Positions 1,278 through 58,645 of a DNA stretch of 64,000 bases are shown one piece after another (within the stretch, counting starts at the first letter, position 1; every line of letters begins with the position of its first letter). The notes under the pieces are model-generated. The model was not told the origin of the DNA. It saw only the letters and a list, made by a program, of their open reading frames with translations, and made no database searches. The stretch spans positions 434,001 through 498,000 of the forward strand of contig JAUSJA010000026.1 of the NCBI GenBank assembly GCA_030647905.1. Reading direction: 5' to 3'. The DNA is from Gemmatimonadaceae bacterium. Lineage in GTDB: Bacteria; Gemmatimonadota; Gemmatimonadetes; Gemmatimonadales; Gemmatimonadaceae. Made by a program: the position numbers and the translations under genes.

Positions 1278-2399
1278 CTACTGGTACTGAATGTAGACGG
1301 GCTTGGGTGTGACGCGGAGAAGCTCACCGGGCGTGAGCAGCGGCTCGCCCTTCTTCGTGTCGTTGTGATAGAAGAGCTTGAATCCGGTGAACTGGACGGG
1401 CTCCGCCTGCACGTATTCGCGATACGAGTCGAACTTGAGCCACGGCGCACCCCATCCGTCCATGTTGATCACGACCTGGACGCGCGGATCGAGCCGGATT
1501 CCCTTCGTATCGGTGAGCATCTTCCGCGTGAAGCGATGCACGATCAGGACCTTCGGTGGAAGACTGTTCGCCTTCACCAGGTTTGACAGGTAATTCACCG
1601 CCCAGTTCACGTCGGCTGAGCTCATCGTGCCAATCCTGTGGCCCGGCGGATCTCCCGACTTCATGGAGAACTCGGGGTCGAGCCCAAGGTGGACATTGGG
1701 ACGCTTGAGGAATTGCTCGAGGCGCGGGACTTCTGCCTGCACATTGCTCTTTCCGACCTGAATGTCGAGGAAGAGAAGGGCGTTCTTCTTCTGGGTCCAG
1801 GAGTAGACTCGCTCGACGAGAGTGTCCGGCATGCGGAGTCGGTATTTGCCGTCACGTCCGGGAGCACCCTGGGCGACCACTACTATGAGGTGAAGCGCGG
1901 GCTGAACCGGAGTGGAAGGATCCGCGCGATTCCACGCGGCGATTTCCTTGTCGAGGCGGGCAAGCATCTCGTCGGGCGGCAGCTCACCCAGAATTCCCAT
2001 CTTCTTCGACAGCGGATTCCCGTAATAGGCGACGATACGCTTTCCAGGAAGGATCGAGCCGGGAAGCGGTGCGGCGGTCTTCACTGGCCAGTGGGTATCC
2101 TTCATTCCCTTGCGGATGGCTGAAACGAGCGCGATGCTGTCGCGTTTGTTGCGACCGGGGACGGATGGAACCGTGATTGGAGCGGGCTTCACGCTATCGG
2201 CCGGCTTGGCCGTATCGGCTGCGACGCGTGAGGCCAGCGTGGCTGAATCCATCGCCACGACAGTCGCCACGACAGTGACCGGCTGCATCGCGGTATTGGC
2301 GGCCCCGGGAGGAACGGCCGGTTGCGCGTCGTTCATCGCGCAGGCGGCAAGTAGCGCGAGGCCGGCGATGCCCGGCGCGGAGTAACGAATCATCTGCAT
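1278..2399 (-). CDS. Secreted lipoprotein of unknown function, possible TIM-barrel-like fold
   Basis: I do not recognise a named family. The 373-residue product starts with a lipoprotein signal (hydrophobic segment, then LLAAC at about residues 16-20), followed by a Pro/Ala/Thr-rich linker to about residue 80. The rest is a folded domain: RIVAYYGNPLSKKMG near 125, then alternating hydrophobic strands such as LHLIVVVAQG, ALLFLDIQVG, VHLGLDPEF, KVLIVHRF and VQVVINMDGWG. This alternating pattern, with acidic or aromatic residues at strand ends, resembles a glycosidase-like barrel, but that is inference. The protein probably sits at the periplasmic or outer-membrane face. A terminator follows it. 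Confidence 0.75.
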   Translation of the reverse strand: MQMIRYSAPGIAGLALLAACAMNDAQPAVPPGAANTAMQPVTVVATVVAMDSATLASRVAADTAKPADSVKPAPITVPSVPGRNKRDSIALVSAIRKGMKDTHWPVKTAAPLPGSILPGKRIVAYYGNPLSKKMGILGELPPDEMLARLDKEIAAWNRADPSTPVQPALHLIVVVAQGAPGRDGKYRLRMPDTLVERVYSWTQKKNALLFLDIQVGKSNVQAEVPRLEQFLKRPNVHLGLDPEFSMKSGDPPGHRIGTMSSADVNWAVNYLSNLVKANSLPPKVLIVHRFTRKMLTDTKGIRLDPRVQVVINMDGWGAPWLKFDSYREYVQAEPVQFTGFKLFYHNDTKKGEPLLTPGELLRVTPKPVYIQYQ

Positions 2400-2522
2400 G
2401 CTGCTGAAGCTTGGTTGGAGAGTGGCCTCTAATACTAACCCACTCCCCTGTATAGGGCGGAGATCTCCGTGAATTCGCGTCCCGGCATCGCCAGATCAGG
2501 GGATCGCGGATTTTCTGTGCGA

Positions 2523-2541
2523 CATATCCCTACAGATAAAC
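2523..2541 (+). promoter_or_regulatory. Copy of the recurrent GGGAA/CC/TAC motif (degenerate left half) upstream of the USP-DUF5335 gene
   Basis: ATATCCCTACAGATAAAC is shared in part with better copies at 6941, 11507 (minus) and others: ATCC-CTACA-GA matches exactly, while the GGG half is missing. Its TAC lies about 76 nt before the start codon at 2607. This is one of the weaker copies. Confidence 0.3.
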
Positions 2542-2606
2542 GCCTGCGTCGCCGCAATCTTGCAGTGAGTAAAAGTGCATGACAGAGACCAATGGAGGAT
2601 CCAGCC

Positions 2607-3941
2607 ATGATGAACTCCGCACAGAACGCCCCTGAAGCGGGCCAGCTCGGCATCTATTACCCGCCGCCCAGGACACAGCCGTCGGGTCCACTGCTTGTCG
2701 CCACTGACGGAGGCGCGCCCTCCGATGCAGCGTTTCGCGCGGCGTTGGCGCTGAGGGAAAAGCTCAGTGCGGACGTCGAAGTGGTCGGCGTGGTCGAGCC
2801 GTTGCCGATGATCGTTCCCGAGGCGCAGGGATTGCTTCAACCGCTCGTCGTCACGCCGGAGCACATGACTGCGCTGAAGACCAAGGTCAGGACACAGCTC
2901 GACGACGCTGGAGTCGCCGGGAGCAAGTGGCCGATTACCGTTCTGTACGGACGCCCTGCCAGGGAGATCACTGACCTCGCCAGACAGAACCACTCGCAGC
3001 TCATCGTGATCGGGCTCACGCATCACGGCGTGATAGACAGGATCCTCGACGGAGAGACGGCGCTCGAGGTTCTGAGACAATCGGAAGTACCGGTACTCCT
3101 CGCTTCAGGGTTCGAGTCGCTTCCGCGTCAGGCCGTGTTCGCGGTGGACTTCAGCGCGCAGAGCATGAATGCGGCGCGAGCGGGCCTGCGCCTCGTCAGC
3201 GCCGATTGCTTCGTGAACCTTGTCCACGTTCGTCCCTCCGTCACTGTATTCGACGGCACCGGAATGTGGGAAGTGGAGTACGACAAGGCCGCTGAGCGTG
3301 AGCTGGAGAAATTCGCGGAAGCTCTTGCGGCACCGGCGGGAATCGAGACGAAACCGACGATTCTGCGCGGTCGGCCTGCCAACGCCATCGCCGATTTCGC
3401 GCGGAATGCAGGTGCGGATCTCATCGTCGCGGGAACTCGGGGAGCCGGACTCATGAGGAGAATCCTCGTCGGAAGCGTCGCCACCGGTCTCGTTCACAAG
3501 GCCACGACTTCGGTGCTGATCGTTCCGGACAGAGTGGGCGCCCGCACCGAGCGGATCGCGGACTCACTCCATGCCGACGCGGATCCGGCGACGCGCAGCG
3601 AATGGGCGGCGAAGCTCTCCGAATTCTCGAAGCGCAATGCTGCACGCCGCGCGACTCTCGAGATAGATGACCCCGCGATCGGCTCTCAATCAGAAGTCGT
3701 GGACTTCCCGTTCCTTGGCGCCGACTACGACAGGCAAAGCGGGAGGGTGGAGATCATGCTTGGTGAATTCACGGGGAGTGATCGCCATCTGACGCACAGC
3801 ATGGAAAGGATTTCCTCCATTGACATCCTGAAGGACGAGACCGGAAAGGACATGGCGCTTCGCGTGGCGTATGAAGGTGGCCAGGCGCTGGTTCTGTTCG
3901 GCCGCGAAAACCGTTCAAAGCCGGTGGCGAAGGCGACTTGA
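2607..3941 (+). CDS. Tandem universal stress protein with C-terminal DUF5335-like domain
   Basis: Two USP domains (about residues 15-165 and 170-310) precede an extra domain (about 335-440). Each USP half ends in the nucleotide-loop pattern: VIGLTHHGVIDRILDGET in the first and VAGTRGAGLMRRILVGS in the second; the second is canonical. The C-terminal part (ATLEIDDPAIG ... LTHSMERISSIDIL) resembles DUF5335. USPs are cytosolic ATP/AMP-binding stress and dormancy proteins. I place the start at ATG 2607 because an upstream in-frame ATG at 2592 overlaps the GGAGG ribosome site at 2594-2598. The stop overlaps the TTG start of the MgtC-like gene (TTGA), implying coupling. Confidence 0.88.
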   Translation: MMNSAQNAPEAGQLGIYYPPPRTQPSGPLLVATDGGAPSDAAFRAALALREKLSADVEVVGVVEPLPMIVPEAQGLLQPLVVTPEHMTALKTKVRTQLDDAGVAGSKWPITVLYGRPAREITDLARQNHSQLIVIGLTHHGVIDRILDGETALEVLRQSEVPVLLASGFESLPRQAVFAVDFSAQSMNAARAGLRLVSADCFVNLVHVRPSVTVFDGTGMWEVEYDKAAERELEKFAEALAAPAGIETKPTILRGRPANAIADFARNAGADLIVAGTRGAGLMRRILVGSVATGLVHKATTSVLIVPDRVGARTERIADSLHADADPATRSEWAAKLSEFSKRNAARRATLEIDDPAIGSQSEVVDFPFLGADYDRQSGRVEIMLGEFTGSDRHLTHSMERISSIDILKDETGKDMALRVAYEGGQALVLFGRENRSKPVAKAT

Positions 3942-5209
3942 AGCCAGTGCAGTTTGGGCCCGAGCTGGAAATCGTAGTCCGGCTCGCGATAGCGTCGCTG
4001 GTCGGGCTCGGCGTCGGACTCGAGCGTGAATGGTCGGGCCATGCGACAGGGCCGCGCGCGCGTTTCGCCGGGCTGAGGACGTTCTTTCTTCTCGGGCTGA
4101 TTGGCGGGATCGCGGGGCTGCTGTTGAGTCAGTCGCACGAAGCCGTCGCGTCAGTGATCATAGCGGGAGCGATGGCGATGAGCGTCGGGGCCTATCTCAT
4201 GTCGGTTCGCCGTCCGGAGATTGAGCTGGATGGCACCACTGAGGTGGCAGCTCTGGCTGTGGTGCTGCTCGGCACGCTGGCAGGCGACGGATTCCTCGCG
4301 ATTTCCGCGGGCGCCGGTTCGCTCGTCGTTCTCGCGCTGAGCGAGAAGACGAAGCTGCACTGGGCCGTGCGCCGCGTGGGAGAAAACGAGCTTCGTGCGG
4401 CGCTTCAGTTCGCCGTACTCGCGCTCGTCGTGCTGCCGCTTCTTCCCGCCGGGCCATTCCTCGGTGCGCTCGAGGTAAGACCGCGCGCGTTGTGGATGAT
4501 TGTGCTGCTGTTCTCGGGTCTGAATTTCGTCGGCTTTCTCGCCCGTCGCGCGCTCGGACCGGGCGCCGGGTACATACTCACAGGACTGGCAGGCGGCCTG
4601 GTTTCGTCCACTGCGGTCACTCTCGAGTTCTCGCGCGAGAGCAAGCGGAACGCGGCGATATCGCGATCGCTTGCGTTCGGAATCATCGGCGCGTGCACAG
4701 TGCTTATTCTGCGTGTGCTCATCGTCAGCGGTGCGCTCGACGTGGATGTCGCGCGAAGTCTTGTCTTATTCGTGGTACCGCCGTTTCTGCTGGGCGCGGG
4801 CATGCTTGCCTGGGCGTTGCGCCGCAGACATGAGGCGAACGGCGGGGAGGTTCTTCTCGCCGAGAGTCCGCTCAAGCTTGGCGCCGCGATCAGGATGGCT
4901 ATCGCGTTCCAGATAGCGATAGTCCTTGTCACGGCTGTGCGGAGCCGCTGGGGAAGTGCGGGCGTTTATCCGGCTGCAGCAGCGCTCGGCTTGACCGACA
5001 TGGATGCGTTGACTGTCTCGATGAGCAGGATGGGCGAATCTCTATCGCCCGGGATCGCAGCGCGAGCGATCGCGATCGGCATCATCGCGAACACGGTGCT
5101 CAAGCTCGGGCTCGTGTTGGGTCTCGGCAGTAGCGAGACACGGCGCATTGCCGGAATCGGGCTCGTGGCGCTGGCGCTGGCCAGCGGACTGGGTCTGCTG
5201 ATTGCGTAA
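3938..5209 (+). CDS. MgtC/SapB-type DUF4010 integral membrane protein
   Basis: This 423-residue polytopic inner-membrane protein begins with an MgtC-like segment (IASLVGLGVGLEREW near residues 17-31, then RFAGLRTFFLLG). About ten hydrophobic segments follow, with the DUF4010 region from about residue 180 onward (GLAGGLVSSTAVTLEFSRES near 215). MgtC-family proteins are linked to Mg2+ limitation, acid or virulence stress; the exact role of MgtC-DUF4010 fusions is unknown. The start is TTG at 3938, overlapping the USP stop by 4 nt, so the two are very likely co-translated. It converges with the PAS kinase gene. Confidence 0.85.
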   Translation: MKPVQFGPELEIVVRLAIASLVGLGVGLEREWSGHATGPRARFAGLRTFFLLGLIGGIAGLLLSQSHEAVASVIIAGAMAMSVGAYLMSVRRPEIELDGTTEVAALAVVLLGTLAGDGFLAISAGAGSLVVLALSEKTKLHWAVRRVGENELRAALQFAVLALVVLPLLPAGPFLGALEVRPRALWMIVLLFSGLNFVGFLARRALGPGAGYILTGLAGGLVSSTAVTLEFSRESKRNAAISRSLAFGIIGACTVLILRVLIVSGALDVDVARSLVLFVVPPFLLGAGMLAWALRRRHEANGGEVLLAESPLKLGAAIRMAIAFQIAIVLVTAVRSRWGSAGVYPAAAALGLTDMDALTVSMSRMGESLSPGIAARAIAIGIIANTVLKLGLVLGLGSSETRRIAGIGLVALALASGLGLLIA

Positions 5210-53941: not shown

Positions 53942-54745
53942 TCAGCCCAGCAGCGCCTCGAGCTCCCGCTGCCTGAGATTAAATGTGTAACCCGTTCCGA
54001 CAATGCCAACGCGAAGCGAGCTCAGCGTGAGCTGCCGTCCCTTCGTGACCTCATCAGCGTTGTCGAACTTCACCGTGCGCCCATCCACGAACGTCACACC
54101 GCCCTTTCCGGCGACCGTGCCGACCTCGCCGCGGACGATCATAGCGGTATCCTCATCAATGCCGAGTCCCATGATGTCGGGATAGTCGGCAATCGCGACG
54201 AACAAGCGATACAGCCGGCGGCGCTGTGAGAAATGCGTATCTATCAGAGTCTTGAACGAGAGAAGCCCGAGCCCCGGTCCGATGTACTGCTCGACGACGT
54301 TTCCCTCCTCGTCCATTTCATTTCCCGCGAGCGTCAGTTCCGTAAGCGCAGCCGCGCCCGCGCTCGTACCACATACGATGCCGCCGCTCACGTAATTATC
54401 CCAGATGGCGTCGCCAACGGCAGTCCCGCTCAACGTAGTGATCAGCTTGACCTGATCGCCGCCGCCAAAAAAAATGCCGCGGGCCTTCGCCACGATCTTC
54501 GCGATGTCGCGCTTCTGAGCGTCATCACGCGTCTCGATGATCGGAATCACCACATCGCCCGCGCCCGCCGCCGCGAGATCGGCCTCCCAGTGCTTCGCGC
54601 TGCCCGTGACATTGCGCGACGCCGAGGTAATCCCGACAATCGGACCACCTTCCGCGGCAGCGGCAAGCCTGATGAAGGCGCCGAGTGCTTCACCGTCGGG
54701 GGTGCATGCTCCGCCGATCAGCACGAGAGTCCCGGCGCGGATCAC
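53942..54745 (-). CDS. cphB: Cyanophycinase
   Basis: A serine peptidase of family S51 that hydrolyses cyanophycin to beta-Asp-Arg dipeptides. Diagnostic marks: GTLVLIGGACTPDGEALGAF, ARGIFFGGGDQVKLI, the nucleophile Ser in IVCGTSAGAAALTE, and later GLGLLSFKTLIDTHFSQRRR and IMGLGIDEDTAMIV. No signal peptide is obvious, so it is probably cytosolic. The start is uncertain: GTG 54745 opens directly at the conserved region, but the frame is open farther up and would allow a CTG at 54832 overlapping the upstream stop (CTGA). It is the last gene of a cphA, short cphA-like, cyanophycinase operon. Confidence 0.9.
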   Translation of the reverse strand: MIRAGTLVLIGGACTPDGEALGAFIRLAAAAEGGPIVGITSASRNVTGSAKHWEADLAAAGAGDVVIPIIETRDDAQKRDIAKIVAKARGIFFGGGDQVKLITTLSGTAVGDAIWDNYVSGGIVCGTSAGAAALTELTLAGNEMDEEGNVVEQYIGPGLGLLSFKTLIDTHFSQRRRLYRLFVAIADYPDIMGLGIDEDTAMIVRGEVGTVAGKGGVTFVDGRTVKFDNADEVTKGRQLTLSSLRVGIVGTGYTFNLRQRELEALLG

Positions 54746-54828: not shown

Positions 54829-55917
54829 TCAGGCCTGCGATCGGATGGCTGCCGCAGCCGCGATCTGCGGCTGAAGCTCGTTGAGCGTGAACGCTGCGAG
54901 CGCACCCGCGACCTGCGATGAGACCGGAGCGTCGGCGCGGACAGGGCCATGGTCCGAGCGCTGGCCGCGCCACTCGATCACGATCCGGCCGTCATTCACC
55001 AGCGCAACCGCCCGCGCCACCTTCCTGTCACGGCGCGTGACGTCGTCGCCAGTCGCGAAGATCGCGACGCGACATCCCGTCTCGCGCACCTTGTCCTGCA
55101 CCTCCCATTCCCTGGCCGGCACGATCACGATCCCCCCGCGATCCACCGCGTCGGCGACCGTCGCCATCAGTCGCCGCGCCCGCTCTTCCTCGCGATACCG
55201 CTCCGGAACGTCGGTGAGATTGGTATCCATCACGATCGCGATGTCGGATTTCGAATAGGGAAGCCCGGCCCGGAGCAGAAATACGGGAGACACATCCACG
55301 ATGAGCTCCTGGCTGCCGAATCCCCGGCGCACGACCTCATCCCTTGTCGTCGCCCGGTCGGAGCCGCCGGTGATTCCGCAGAGCACGTGGTGCTTGAGCG
55401 GTGGCACGTCCGGGGTCTCGGCCAGAGCTCTCAACTGCGTCACCGCGTGATCCACTCCGTGCAGAGTTCCGGCGAAGGCCTGCTGCACTGTCTCGATCGC
55501 GAGCGCGGCGGCACGCAGGCCGACGCTTTCATGCAGGTGCTCGAACACGAGCGTGTACTCGCCTTCGTTGTCCCCGCCGCGGGTCCTGCCATAACCCACG
55601 TCGTGCCCGATCATTGTCTGCAGCTCGAGCGCGATATGCTCGACGATGTGCGGCGCGTAAGTGCCGTTGTGCAGACGTGTGATGAACCCGCCACGCTCAC
55701 CGATGCTGCAACGGTGCTCCTCGAGACCCGGCATCGCCGACACGAGCGCCTCGGTGAAGCCAGGCACGTCGGCGGACGAGATGTCCTCGTACGCGCCGAT
55801 GACGAGATCCATCCGCATCACCGGACGCGTGGACCAGAAGTTCGCTCCACGTGTCGCGTGCAGCGTGGTCATCCGGATCTCGACCGCCGGATCCGGTCTC
55901 GTTGCGCTTGCGGTCAT
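54829..55917 (-). CDS. Short CphA-like protein without ATP-grasp and with degenerate Mur-ligase domain
   Basis: Residues about 16-165 match the N-terminal domain of the adjacent cyanophycin synthetase (TRGANFWSTRPVMRMDLVIG, GGFITRLHNGTYAPHIVEHI, ALELQTMIGHDVGYGRT). The entire ATP-grasp domain is absent. What follows resembles part of the Mur-ligase domain: HHVLCGITGGSDRATTRDEV in place of VTGTNGKTTTTR, so the P-loop Lys is lost, and SPVFLLRAGLPYSKSDIAIV in place of ARGGILRAGLGFDEVDVGVV. It should lack catalytic activity and may bind polymer or regulate CphA. ATG 55917 lies 4 nt after the cphA stop; ATG 55872 is an alternative. Confidence 0.8.
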   Translation of the reverse strand: MTASATRPDPAVEIRMTTLHATRGANFWSTRPVMRMDLVIGAYEDISSADVPGFTEALVSAMPGLEEHRCSIGERGGFITRLHNGTYAPHIVEHIALELQTMIGHDVGYGRTRGGDNEGEYTLVFEHLHESVGLRAAALAIETVQQAFAGTLHGVDHAVTQLRALAETPDVPPLKHHVLCGITGGSDRATTRDEVVRRGFGSQELIVDVSPVFLLRAGLPYSKSDIAIVMDTNLTDVPERYREEERARRLMATVADAVDRGGIVIVPAREWEVQDKVRETGCRVAIFATGDDVTRRDRKVARAVALVNDGRIVIEWRGQRSDHGPVRADAPVSSQVAGALAAFTLNELQPQIAAAAAIRSQA

Positions 55918-55921
55918 GGGC

Positions 55922-58645
55922 TCAGTGCACCTGCCCGCTCGACAGCTGCCGCATCTGCTCGAGCACGGCAGGAACATCGTCGGCGAGCACGAACACGAGA
56001 TCGTTGTCCTTCATCTCGTGCAGGGCCTTGGCAAGCGCCTCCTGCTCGTCGTACACGACTTCTATCTGCTCCTCGCGCATGCCGGCCTCGACGAGTCCCT
56101 CCTTTATCAGCCGCGCGGTGTCGCCGACTGCGCGGCCCCGGCGATAGTTGTTCTCGCGCACAATGACGCGATCGAGCCCGGCCGTAAGACGGCCGACAGT
56201 TCGCAGGTCCTCGTCACGCCGGTCGCCGGGCGCGGTGATGATTCCGATGCGGTGATTGGCATCGAGCCCATGAACGAATTCCATCAGGCCGGCGATTGCC
56301 GCCGGGTTGTGCGCGTAATCCACCAGCACGCGACCGTTGCCGAAGCGGAGAAGGTTGAGGCGGCCCGGCGTGAGCGATGGCGAGGGGAAGAACGACAGCA
56401 GCCCCGCGCGGATGTCGTCGTAGCGCATCCCCTGCACGTACGCGGCGAGTATCGCCGCGAGAACGTTCTCGCGCTGGAACTTCGCCGCGCCGCCCATCAT
56501 CAGCGGCACATCGTGCACCGGCGCAATCGGAATCCGCAGCTTGCCTCGCCGGATGACGAACGTCTCCTTCTCGACCCGCGCGCCAATACCATTGCGCGAC
56601 AGATGCCGCTCGAACTCCGCGCTCTCGCCCTCGGGCTTCGTCGAGAACAGGACCACGTCTCCCGGCGTGCGGTCGCGCATGGCGTACACGAGCGGATCGT
56701 CGGCGTTGAGAATGGCGTGGCCTTCGCGCTTCACCACCGCGGCGATTACGCTCTTCACGTCGGCGAGCTGCTCTACCGTATTGATGCCGCGCAGCCCGAG
56801 GTGGTCCGCGGTGACGTTGAGCACCACGCCGACATCCACTTCGTCGAACCCCAGTCCGGCGCGCAGAATGCCGCCGCGCGCGGTTTCCAGAACCGCAATG
56901 TCCACCGTGGGATTGGACAGGATGATGTTGGCGGAGAACGGGCCCGTCATGTCGCCCTCGATGACGAGACGGTTCCCGAGGTATGTGCCGTCAGTAGTCG
57001 TGAATCCGACGACGTTCTCGCTCACGCGGAAGAGATGCGCGATGAGTCGCGTCGTGGTCGTCTTTCCGTTGGTGCCGGTCACGGCGATCACCGGTATCGT
57101 CGGTTCGCTTCCCGGCGGATACAGCATGTCCAGTATAGGCGCGCCGACGTTCCTCGGCTCACCTTCCGCCGGATGCGTGTGCATGCGAATGCCGGGACCG
57201 GCGTTCACCTCGATGATGACGCTCCGATTCTCGCGGAATGGAACGGAGATATCAGGCGTGAGCACATCGATGCCGGCGATGTCGAGTCCGATCACGCCGG
57301 CCGCCATCTCGCATGCGGTGACATTGTCCGGGTGCATCTCGTCGGTACGGTCTATCGAAGTGCCGCCGGTCGAGAGGTTGGCGGTCGCGCGCAGTCCGAC
57401 GAATTCACTTTTTGCCGGAATGGTATCCATCGTCCTGCCGCTCAGCGCGAGATGATCCTCAGTAGTCTTGTCGGCCGGCAACCGCGTGAGACTTTTCGTA
57501 TGCCCGACTCCGCGGCACGGATCGCGATTTCCTTTCTCGATCAACTCGCGCACAGTCGTCCTTCCGTCACCGATCACGTGTGCCGGAACGCGCTCGGCCG
57601 CCGCAACGACTTTCCCGTTCACCACCAGCACCCTGTGATCGCGTCCCTCGGCGAATTGTTCGACGACGATCCTGCCGTACACGGAGGAACGATCCCACGC
57701 TGCGCGGAGCTGATCGGCGTCGTCAATGCGCCCGGAGATTCCGCGTCCGTGATTCGCTGCGAGCGGTTTGAGAATCACCGGATAGCCGATATCGTCGGCG
57801 ATCTCGAGCGCGCCGCCAACGGTTCGCGCGACGTCTCCCTTGGGAACGGGAAGGCCTATGTTCTCCAGCACGCGTTTGGTGTCGTCCTTGTTCTGGGCAA
57901 TCTCGACACCGATGGCGCTAGTCATGTCGGTGAGCGTCGCCTGGATGCGATGGAGATTCCGGCCGAGTCCCAGCTGCACGAGCGAATAGTTGTTGAGCCG
58001 CCGCACGGGAATGCCGCGCCGCCGCGCTTCCTCGACGATCGCGCCAGTAGAAGGCCCGAGCCGCGACGACTCGTACAACGAGAGCAGGTCGTCAATGATG
58101 GCGTCCATTTCGAACTGCTCGCCGGCGATGAGCGCGCGGATGATCCTGACCGCGTCCTTCATCGCGCGGAGGCCGACCTGCTCCTCCTGGTACTCGACGA
58201 TGACCCACCACACGCCCTCGTCGCCCGACGGCACGACCCGCCCGAACGCGACCTCGTTACCGATGATGGACTGAAGCTCGAGTGCGAGGTGCTCGAGGAT
58301 GTGGGGAATGTGAGTGCCTTCGATCAGCCGCTCGACGAACCCGCCCGGGTTTCCGCGTGTGCACTTGTGGAGCTGAAGACTGGGGATCAGCTCGACCAGC
58401 CGGTCGTTGAGTCCCGGGATCTCCGCGGACGTGATCTTTTCGAGTGCGCCGAGGCGCACGTCGCACGCAATGACCGGGGCGAGCCGCCAGTGGTTGGGGC
58501 CGCGCAGGGCGCGTATGCGCGTGACCTCCAACTCCGCCGGGTCGAGCCTCTTTTCTGAGTCTGTTAGTGGAGAAGCCAAGGTCGTCGCTGGTCTGGTCGC
58601 TGGTGTTTGTCTCGCTGGTGTTTGTCCCGAGCCGGAAAATCGCAC
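55922..58645 (-). CDS. cphA: Cyanophycin synthetase
   Basis: CphA polymerises Asp and Arg into the storage polymer cyanophycin with two ATP-dependent steps. The 907-residue chain has the N-terminal domain (RGPNHWRLAPVIACDVRLGA), an ATP-grasp domain (GYPVILKPLAANHGRGISGR, VIIEVNAGPGIRMHTHP) for Asp addition, and a Mur-ligase-like domain (IAVTGTNGKTTTTRLIAHLF, LETARGGILRAGLGFDEVDV, LNVTADHLGLRG, VLVDYAHNPAAI) for Arg addition. All active-site regions are intact. The start is GTG 58645; the first 35 residues contain a short repeat (TPAR, TPAT) and may not be translated, since a TTG farther in is possible. Confidence 0.94.
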   Translation of the reverse strand: MRFSGSGQTPARQTPATRPATTLASPLTDSEKRLDPAELEVTRIRALRGPNHWRLAPVIACDVRLGALEKITSAEIPGLNDRLVELIPSLQLHKCTRGNPGGFVERLIEGTHIPHILEHLALELQSIIGNEVAFGRVVPSGDEGVWWVIVEYQEEQVGLRAMKDAVRIIRALIAGEQFEMDAIIDDLLSLYESSRLGPSTGAIVEEARRRGIPVRRLNNYSLVQLGLGRNLHRIQATLTDMTSAIGVEIAQNKDDTKRVLENIGLPVPKGDVARTVGGALEIADDIGYPVILKPLAANHGRGISGRIDDADQLRAAWDRSSVYGRIVVEQFAEGRDHRVLVVNGKVVAAAERVPAHVIGDGRTTVRELIEKGNRDPCRGVGHTKSLTRLPADKTTEDHLALSGRTMDTIPAKSEFVGLRATANLSTGGTSIDRTDEMHPDNVTACEMAAGVIGLDIAGIDVLTPDISVPFRENRSVIIEVNAGPGIRMHTHPAEGEPRNVGAPILDMLYPPGSEPTIPVIAVTGTNGKTTTTRLIAHLFRVSENVVGFTTTDGTYLGNRLVIEGDMTGPFSANIILSNPTVDIAVLETARGGILRAGLGFDEVDVGVVLNVTADHLGLRGINTVEQLADVKSVIAAVVKREGHAILNADDPLVYAMRDRTPGDVVLFSTKPEGESAEFERHLSRNGIGARVEKETFVIRRGKLRIPIAPVHDVPLMMGGAAKFQRENVLAAILAAYVQGMRYDDIRAGLLSFFPSPSLTPGRLNLLRFGNGRVLVDYAHNPAAIAGLMEFVHGLDANHRIGIITAPGDRRDEDLRTVGRLTAGLDRVIVRENNYRRGRAVGDTARLIKEGLVEAGMREEQIEVVYDEQEALAKALHEMKDNDLVFVLADDVPAVLEQMRQLSSGQVH

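Follow-up and report, generated by a model that had tools for sequence, protein, structure and literature searches.

A short CphA paralogue in Gemmatimonadota cyanophycin operons retains the N-domain cutting site and is a candidate stand-alone endo-cyanophycinase

The priming of the synthesis of cyanophycin, a polymer that stores nitrogen, was settled only in 2022, through a hidden cutting site in the synthetase CphA1 (PMC9262961). The N domain of Synechocystis CphA1 (SuCphA1) carries a metallopeptidase-like site, the third active site of CphA1, and works as a zinc-dependent endo-cyanophycinase that makes (beta-Asp-Arg)4-type primers (Sharon 2022, PMC9262961). Mutating H57, C59, R70, H79 or E82 lowers or abolishes primer-independent activity, and the primer-dependent TmCphA1 becomes primer-independent in trans when it is supplied with the N domain alone or with a SuCphA1 whose G and M sites are dead (PMC9262961). 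A second described protein, CphA2 (PDB 7ta5, 8fxh), is a CphA-derived paralogue with fewer active sites that keeps the ATP-grasp domain, polymerises dipeptides and lacks the N-domain motif (PMC9262961). Here we describe a third arrangement, a short paralogue which resembles CphA2 in its origin and in its reduced number of sites but follows the reverse pattern, with the ATP-grasp domain absent and the N motif present. An identity with CphA2 is thereby rejected, in keeping with the distinction that the original prediction had drawn. The short protein is like the CphA1 N domain (SuCphA1, PDB 7lg5/7txv; PF18921) in its Cx19HxxEH motif, its second-shell His, Phe, Arg and Tyr, its fold and its expected substrate; in CphA1, however, the N site sits within a whole polymerase, whereas here it has its own gene and is joined only to a dead Mur core (Mcore).

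The window, by which we mean the whole stretch of 64,000 nucleotides analysed from a Gemmatimonadaceae bacterium, carries the three genes concerned on its minus strand. The first, cphA (55922..58645), encodes a full-length synthetase in which Cx19HxxEH, ATP-grasp and P-loop are all intact and which scores 1104.9 bits against TIGR02068 (cut-off 850) and matches 7lg5 with an E-value of 1e-247 (phmmer). Its stop codon at 55922-55924 leaves a gap of 4 nt to the short gene (54829..55917), which runs from an ATG at 55917 to a stop codon at 54829-54831 and whose translation is a protein of 362 aa. Directly downstream on the same strand lies an S51 cyanophycinase (53942..54742; TIGR02069 5e-51, PF03575), the frame of which ends at 53942 and the uncertain start codon of which is probably near 54742. 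These coordinates confirm the earlier placement of the paralogue between cphA and cyanophycinase. Against the full-length equivalog TIGR02068 the short protein reaches 173.8 bits, below the cut-off of 850, and its layout is that of an N domain followed by Mcore, the G and Mlid parts being absent. The N domain matches PF18921 with an E-value of 2e-37 and 128.1 bits (gathering cut-off 27), and neither the ATP-grasp G domain (Pfam scan and alignment) nor the Mur_ligase_M/C domains (Pfam scan) were found, so that the predicted retention of the former domain and loss of ATP-grasp are upheld.

The N domain of the short protein, P0001 (residues 15-165, 55423..55875, minus strand; PF18921 match 36-146, phmmer matches to SuCphA1 and TeCphA1), is a predicted endo-cyanophycinase with a complete Cx19HxxEH motif. 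Its putative metal and catalytic site, C70-x19-H90-IV-E93-H94 (55636..55710, minus strand), corresponds to C59, H79, E82 and H83 of SuCphA1, and in the window protein the surroundings read H-R-C70-S-IGERGG-F-IT-R-...-H90-IV-E93-H94-IAL-E-...-Y121. The motif is intact in 39/39 homologues. In an alignment of 31 copies and 151 N-domain columns, with no gaps in any copy, the equivalents of Su H57, C59, S60, F67, R70, H79, E82, H83, G97 and Y110 are invariant (31/31), and that of Su E87 is E in 29/31; ten of the eleven site positions are thus invariant, compared with 32 of the 151 columns overall (hypergeometric P 5e-7). Su E90 is not conserved (T/S/G/N), and the CphAs of these genomes lack it as well. 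The full CphAs of the same genomes carry W and V at the short copies' Y110 and T/A101 and mostly S at G97, and because of these differences it is the short copy that stands closer to the characterised enzyme around the substrate. The original prediction had called the protein catalytically dead, a description that fits both ligase sites, which are indeed lost, but not this third one. HxxEH is shared with the M16 inverzincins (pitrilysin, insulin-degrading enzyme), in which the third ligand lies downstream; in the short paralogue it is an upstream Cys within a domain of about 150 residues, and a Pfam scan gave no M16 match.

The second half (residues 174-347, 54877..55398, minus strand) lacks the P-loop and the Mur catalytic residues, and no curated Pfam family matches it. 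It is homologous to the Mur core of CphA (hhalign global, 1-177 against CphA 514-700, pairwise E 1e-4), and residues 170-350 match MurC/D/E/F structurally with Z-scores of 13-16, in agreement with the recognisable fold claimed for it before. As was also noted from the sequence, GITGGSDRATTRD stands in place of the P-loop segment VTGTNGKTTTTR, GTNGKT having become GGSDRA in the window protein, and no short copy that we found has a P-loop. The 'DH' segment for Mg and acyl-phosphate is altered too, from NVTADHLG to DTNLTDVPER (DH to DV). An AlphaFold model of the short protein (16 sequences, pLDDT 82.7, pTM 0.72) aligns with 7txv, the E82Q variant of CphA1, over 327 residues (residues 14-350; Z 30.2, 4.0 A) with both halves in one superposition, and the packing of N domain on Mcore seen in CphA1 is predicted by this model to be roughly kept. 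D256 was considered as the conserved counterpart of Su E607, a substrate contact of the M domain, and was dropped, since in the ungapped profile alignment it moves by one position.

Homologues of about 360 aa with linkage to cphA and cyanophycinase exist, and the short paralogue is present in 39 Gemmatimonadota genomes, of which 31, out of 395 sampled, came from a search with a Mur-half profile (two families, 14 genera, no stops within the matches) and the remainder from further searches. Related genomes carry a full-length open frame of 58-85% identity without stops, and for this reason the short gene is not a chance open reading frame. In every relative compared, conservation is higher in the N half than in the Mur half (92% against 82% identity in G007; 49% against 27% in G032, where the C end is truncated), and the divergent copies of G229 and G032 have lost much of the latter. 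A scan of the genomes of 84,980 species with two peptide patterns from the Mur half, which would miss divergent copies, returned 15 loci, all from Gemmatimonadota but one from an unidentified bacterium, with the same match place as Gemmatimonadota genome G017. On plasmids, CphA-like proteins matched in the N domain only, and the N plus Mcore layout was absent among those examined. In the tree, the short proteins and the type-I CphAs each form a single clade (100/99), and the two are joined to each other via long branches; a tandem duplication of the local cphA is the likely origin of the short gene.

Taken at the level of sequence, the retention of the cutting motif in all 39 copies, together with the loss of the ligase sites in every one, argues that the short protein is probably a trans-acting, stand-alone endo-cyanophycinase derived from CphA1, which would supply primers or chain ends. 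In its N domain, C70, H90 and H94 would be the ligands of a metal, probably zinc, and with E93 as general base the domain would cut cyanophycin internally into short oligomers. These may be used in trans, mainly as primers to be extended by the neighbouring CphA, a situation equivalent to the published rescue of TmCphA1 by the SuCphA1 N site (PMC9262961), and the cuts could perhaps also give fresh ends to the operon's exo-acting cyanophycinase. The Mur-like half corresponds to the Mcore on which the N domain rests in CphA1, which would account for its retention; without an ATP site, it might act as a scaffold and a wall that binds polymer, or offer CphA a surface for docking. Against such a role, the neighbouring CphA nearly always keeps its own Cx19HxxEH, so that a second cutter looks redundant.

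That redundancy is broken in one genome. The sole CphA of G274 (L087, ORF 1778-5152) has an N site that reads C...SGAELTFVLER, in which the equivalents of H79, H83 and R70 are gone, the His ligands being replaced by Phe and Arg, while the remaining protein is conserved and the G and M motifs are intact; the short paralogue next to it has an intact cutting site. In the phylum sample, seven short-bearing genomes (G291, G270, G326, G218, G373, G378, G026) have extra N-degenerate copies of CphA, and more are present in G405, G406 and G408. Such copies are found as well in G203 and G371, two fragmented assemblies in which the short gene was not seen and in which the type-I cphA runs off a contig end (G203) or is a fragment at a contig start (G371). 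With G274 included, N-dead CphAs are present in 8 of the 32 short-bearing genomes against 2 of the 66 other CphA-bearing ones (Fisher P 0.002, uncorrected for kinship). Most genomes with an extra N-dead CphA also hold an intact type-I CphA, and G274 is the only clean case. Like the T. morbirosei CphA1 (PDB 7lgn), these N-dead proteins belong to the CphA family and would need primers from outside; in both, the G and M domains work and the N site is dead, the opposite of the short paralogue. It is conceivable, and we put it forward tentatively, that Gemmatimonadota have split primer-making into a dedicated enzyme, with the N sites of partner CphAs relaxed or lost, which would amount to a natural two-component synthesis system. 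Another group of CphA paralogues, whose N domains are degenerate and lack Cx19HxxEH, is seen at L198-L203, L181, L183, L185, L193, L204 and L205; among these, ATP-grasp is also lost in L204 and L205 and gives a partial match in L193.

The order of genes bears on whether the same endo-cyanophycinase activity could have mobilisation as its main job, opening long chains and thereby creating more ends for the exo-acting cyanophycinase. Cyanophycinase follows immediately downstream of the short gene in 32 of the 35 loci where the sequence allows it to be seen, and in G388 and G326 these two genes stay together with cphA on another contig. On the other hand, cphA directly precedes the short gene in 33 of the 38 loci with room, the two are together with no cyanophycinase directly downstream in G366, G032 and G411, and the N domain of SuCphA1 is a slow cutter (PMC9262961), so that we regard mobilisation as an unlikely main function. 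The enzymes CphB and CphE likewise cut cyanophycin, as the short paralogue is expected to, but they are unrelated serine hydrolases (S51 peptidases) that act from the chain end and release dipeptides.

The original prediction suggested a non-catalytic subunit of CphA that binds polymer, organises granules or regulates; such a subunit could act in mixed oligomers formed via Mcore. The CphA1 N domain does also bind the growing polymer via charged patches (PMC9262961), the Mcore of TeCphA1 touches three Gcore modules of the tetramer, and the Mcore remnant is itself conserved. A pure binder, however, would need no invariant metal ligands, general base and second shell, such as are found in 39 copies from at least 14 genera, and these very residues are missing from TmCphA1, from CphA2 and from the N-dead copies of CphA. 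With the cutting site and nearly all of its surroundings intact, such a role has become less likely than cutting, and we consider it rather improbable.

The Mur half has conserved residues of its own, CGxxGGxxR (180-188), W271-E272-x-Q274-D275 and C282. The stretch that was once the P-loop is conserved as a loop in its own right, C180-G-x-x-G-G-x-x-R188, with G181, G184 and R188 each kept in 29 of 31 copies and G185 in 30 of 31, which would suit a remnant that has acquired a new ligand site from this loop and W271-E272-x-Q274-D275, the protein being then a ligand-gated hydrolase or a sensor. Such conservation may be structural, and the divergent copies in G229 and G032 do without much of this half, so that the chances of a new ligand site seem slim. 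That the gene is a decaying duplicate without function, as the C-terminal truncation of some copies (G032) might suggest, is rejected as highly improbable, since the homologues are not decaying fragments but full-length open frames in two families with the motif kept, gene order maintained, the active site invariant and a low dN/dS (0.07-0.10, NG86, from the few pairs with unsaturated dS, most pairs being saturated).

All the parts of this system are already known, and it is their arrangement in a cphA-cyanophycinase operon that we have not found described: neither the open-licence literature that we searched nor a 2023 survey of cyanophycin gene clusters yielded a stand-alone enzyme that joins the N site to a dead Mur core. 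Other CphA-like layouts were encountered. Gemmatimonadota also have cyanophycin loci of a second type (L110-L116), which combine an S51 cyanophycinase, a CphA whose motif is two residues longer (Cx21HxxEH) and a third, Mur-ligase-only protein with an intact P-loop and open frames of 552-761 codons. A plasmid of Legionella adelaidensis (L166:4001-5869) encodes a CphA-like protein of 622 aa in which the N motif is present and the Mur ligase intact but ATP-grasp missing; cyanophycinase and isoaspartyl peptidase come next. A plasmid of Deinococcus deserti (L165:3845-6019) encodes another CphA-like protein, of 724 aa, that lacks the N motif and most of ATP-grasp.

If the short protein is indeed a dedicated cutter, a gene with just the cutting site, fixed next to cphA throughout a bacterial group, would be the natural counterpart of the published in-trans experiment, and a single knock-out would test priming apart from synthesis. 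N-site activity has doubled the yield in heterologous production of cyanophycin (PMC9262961), for which the short paralogue would offer a ready-made, possibly soluble, primer factory.
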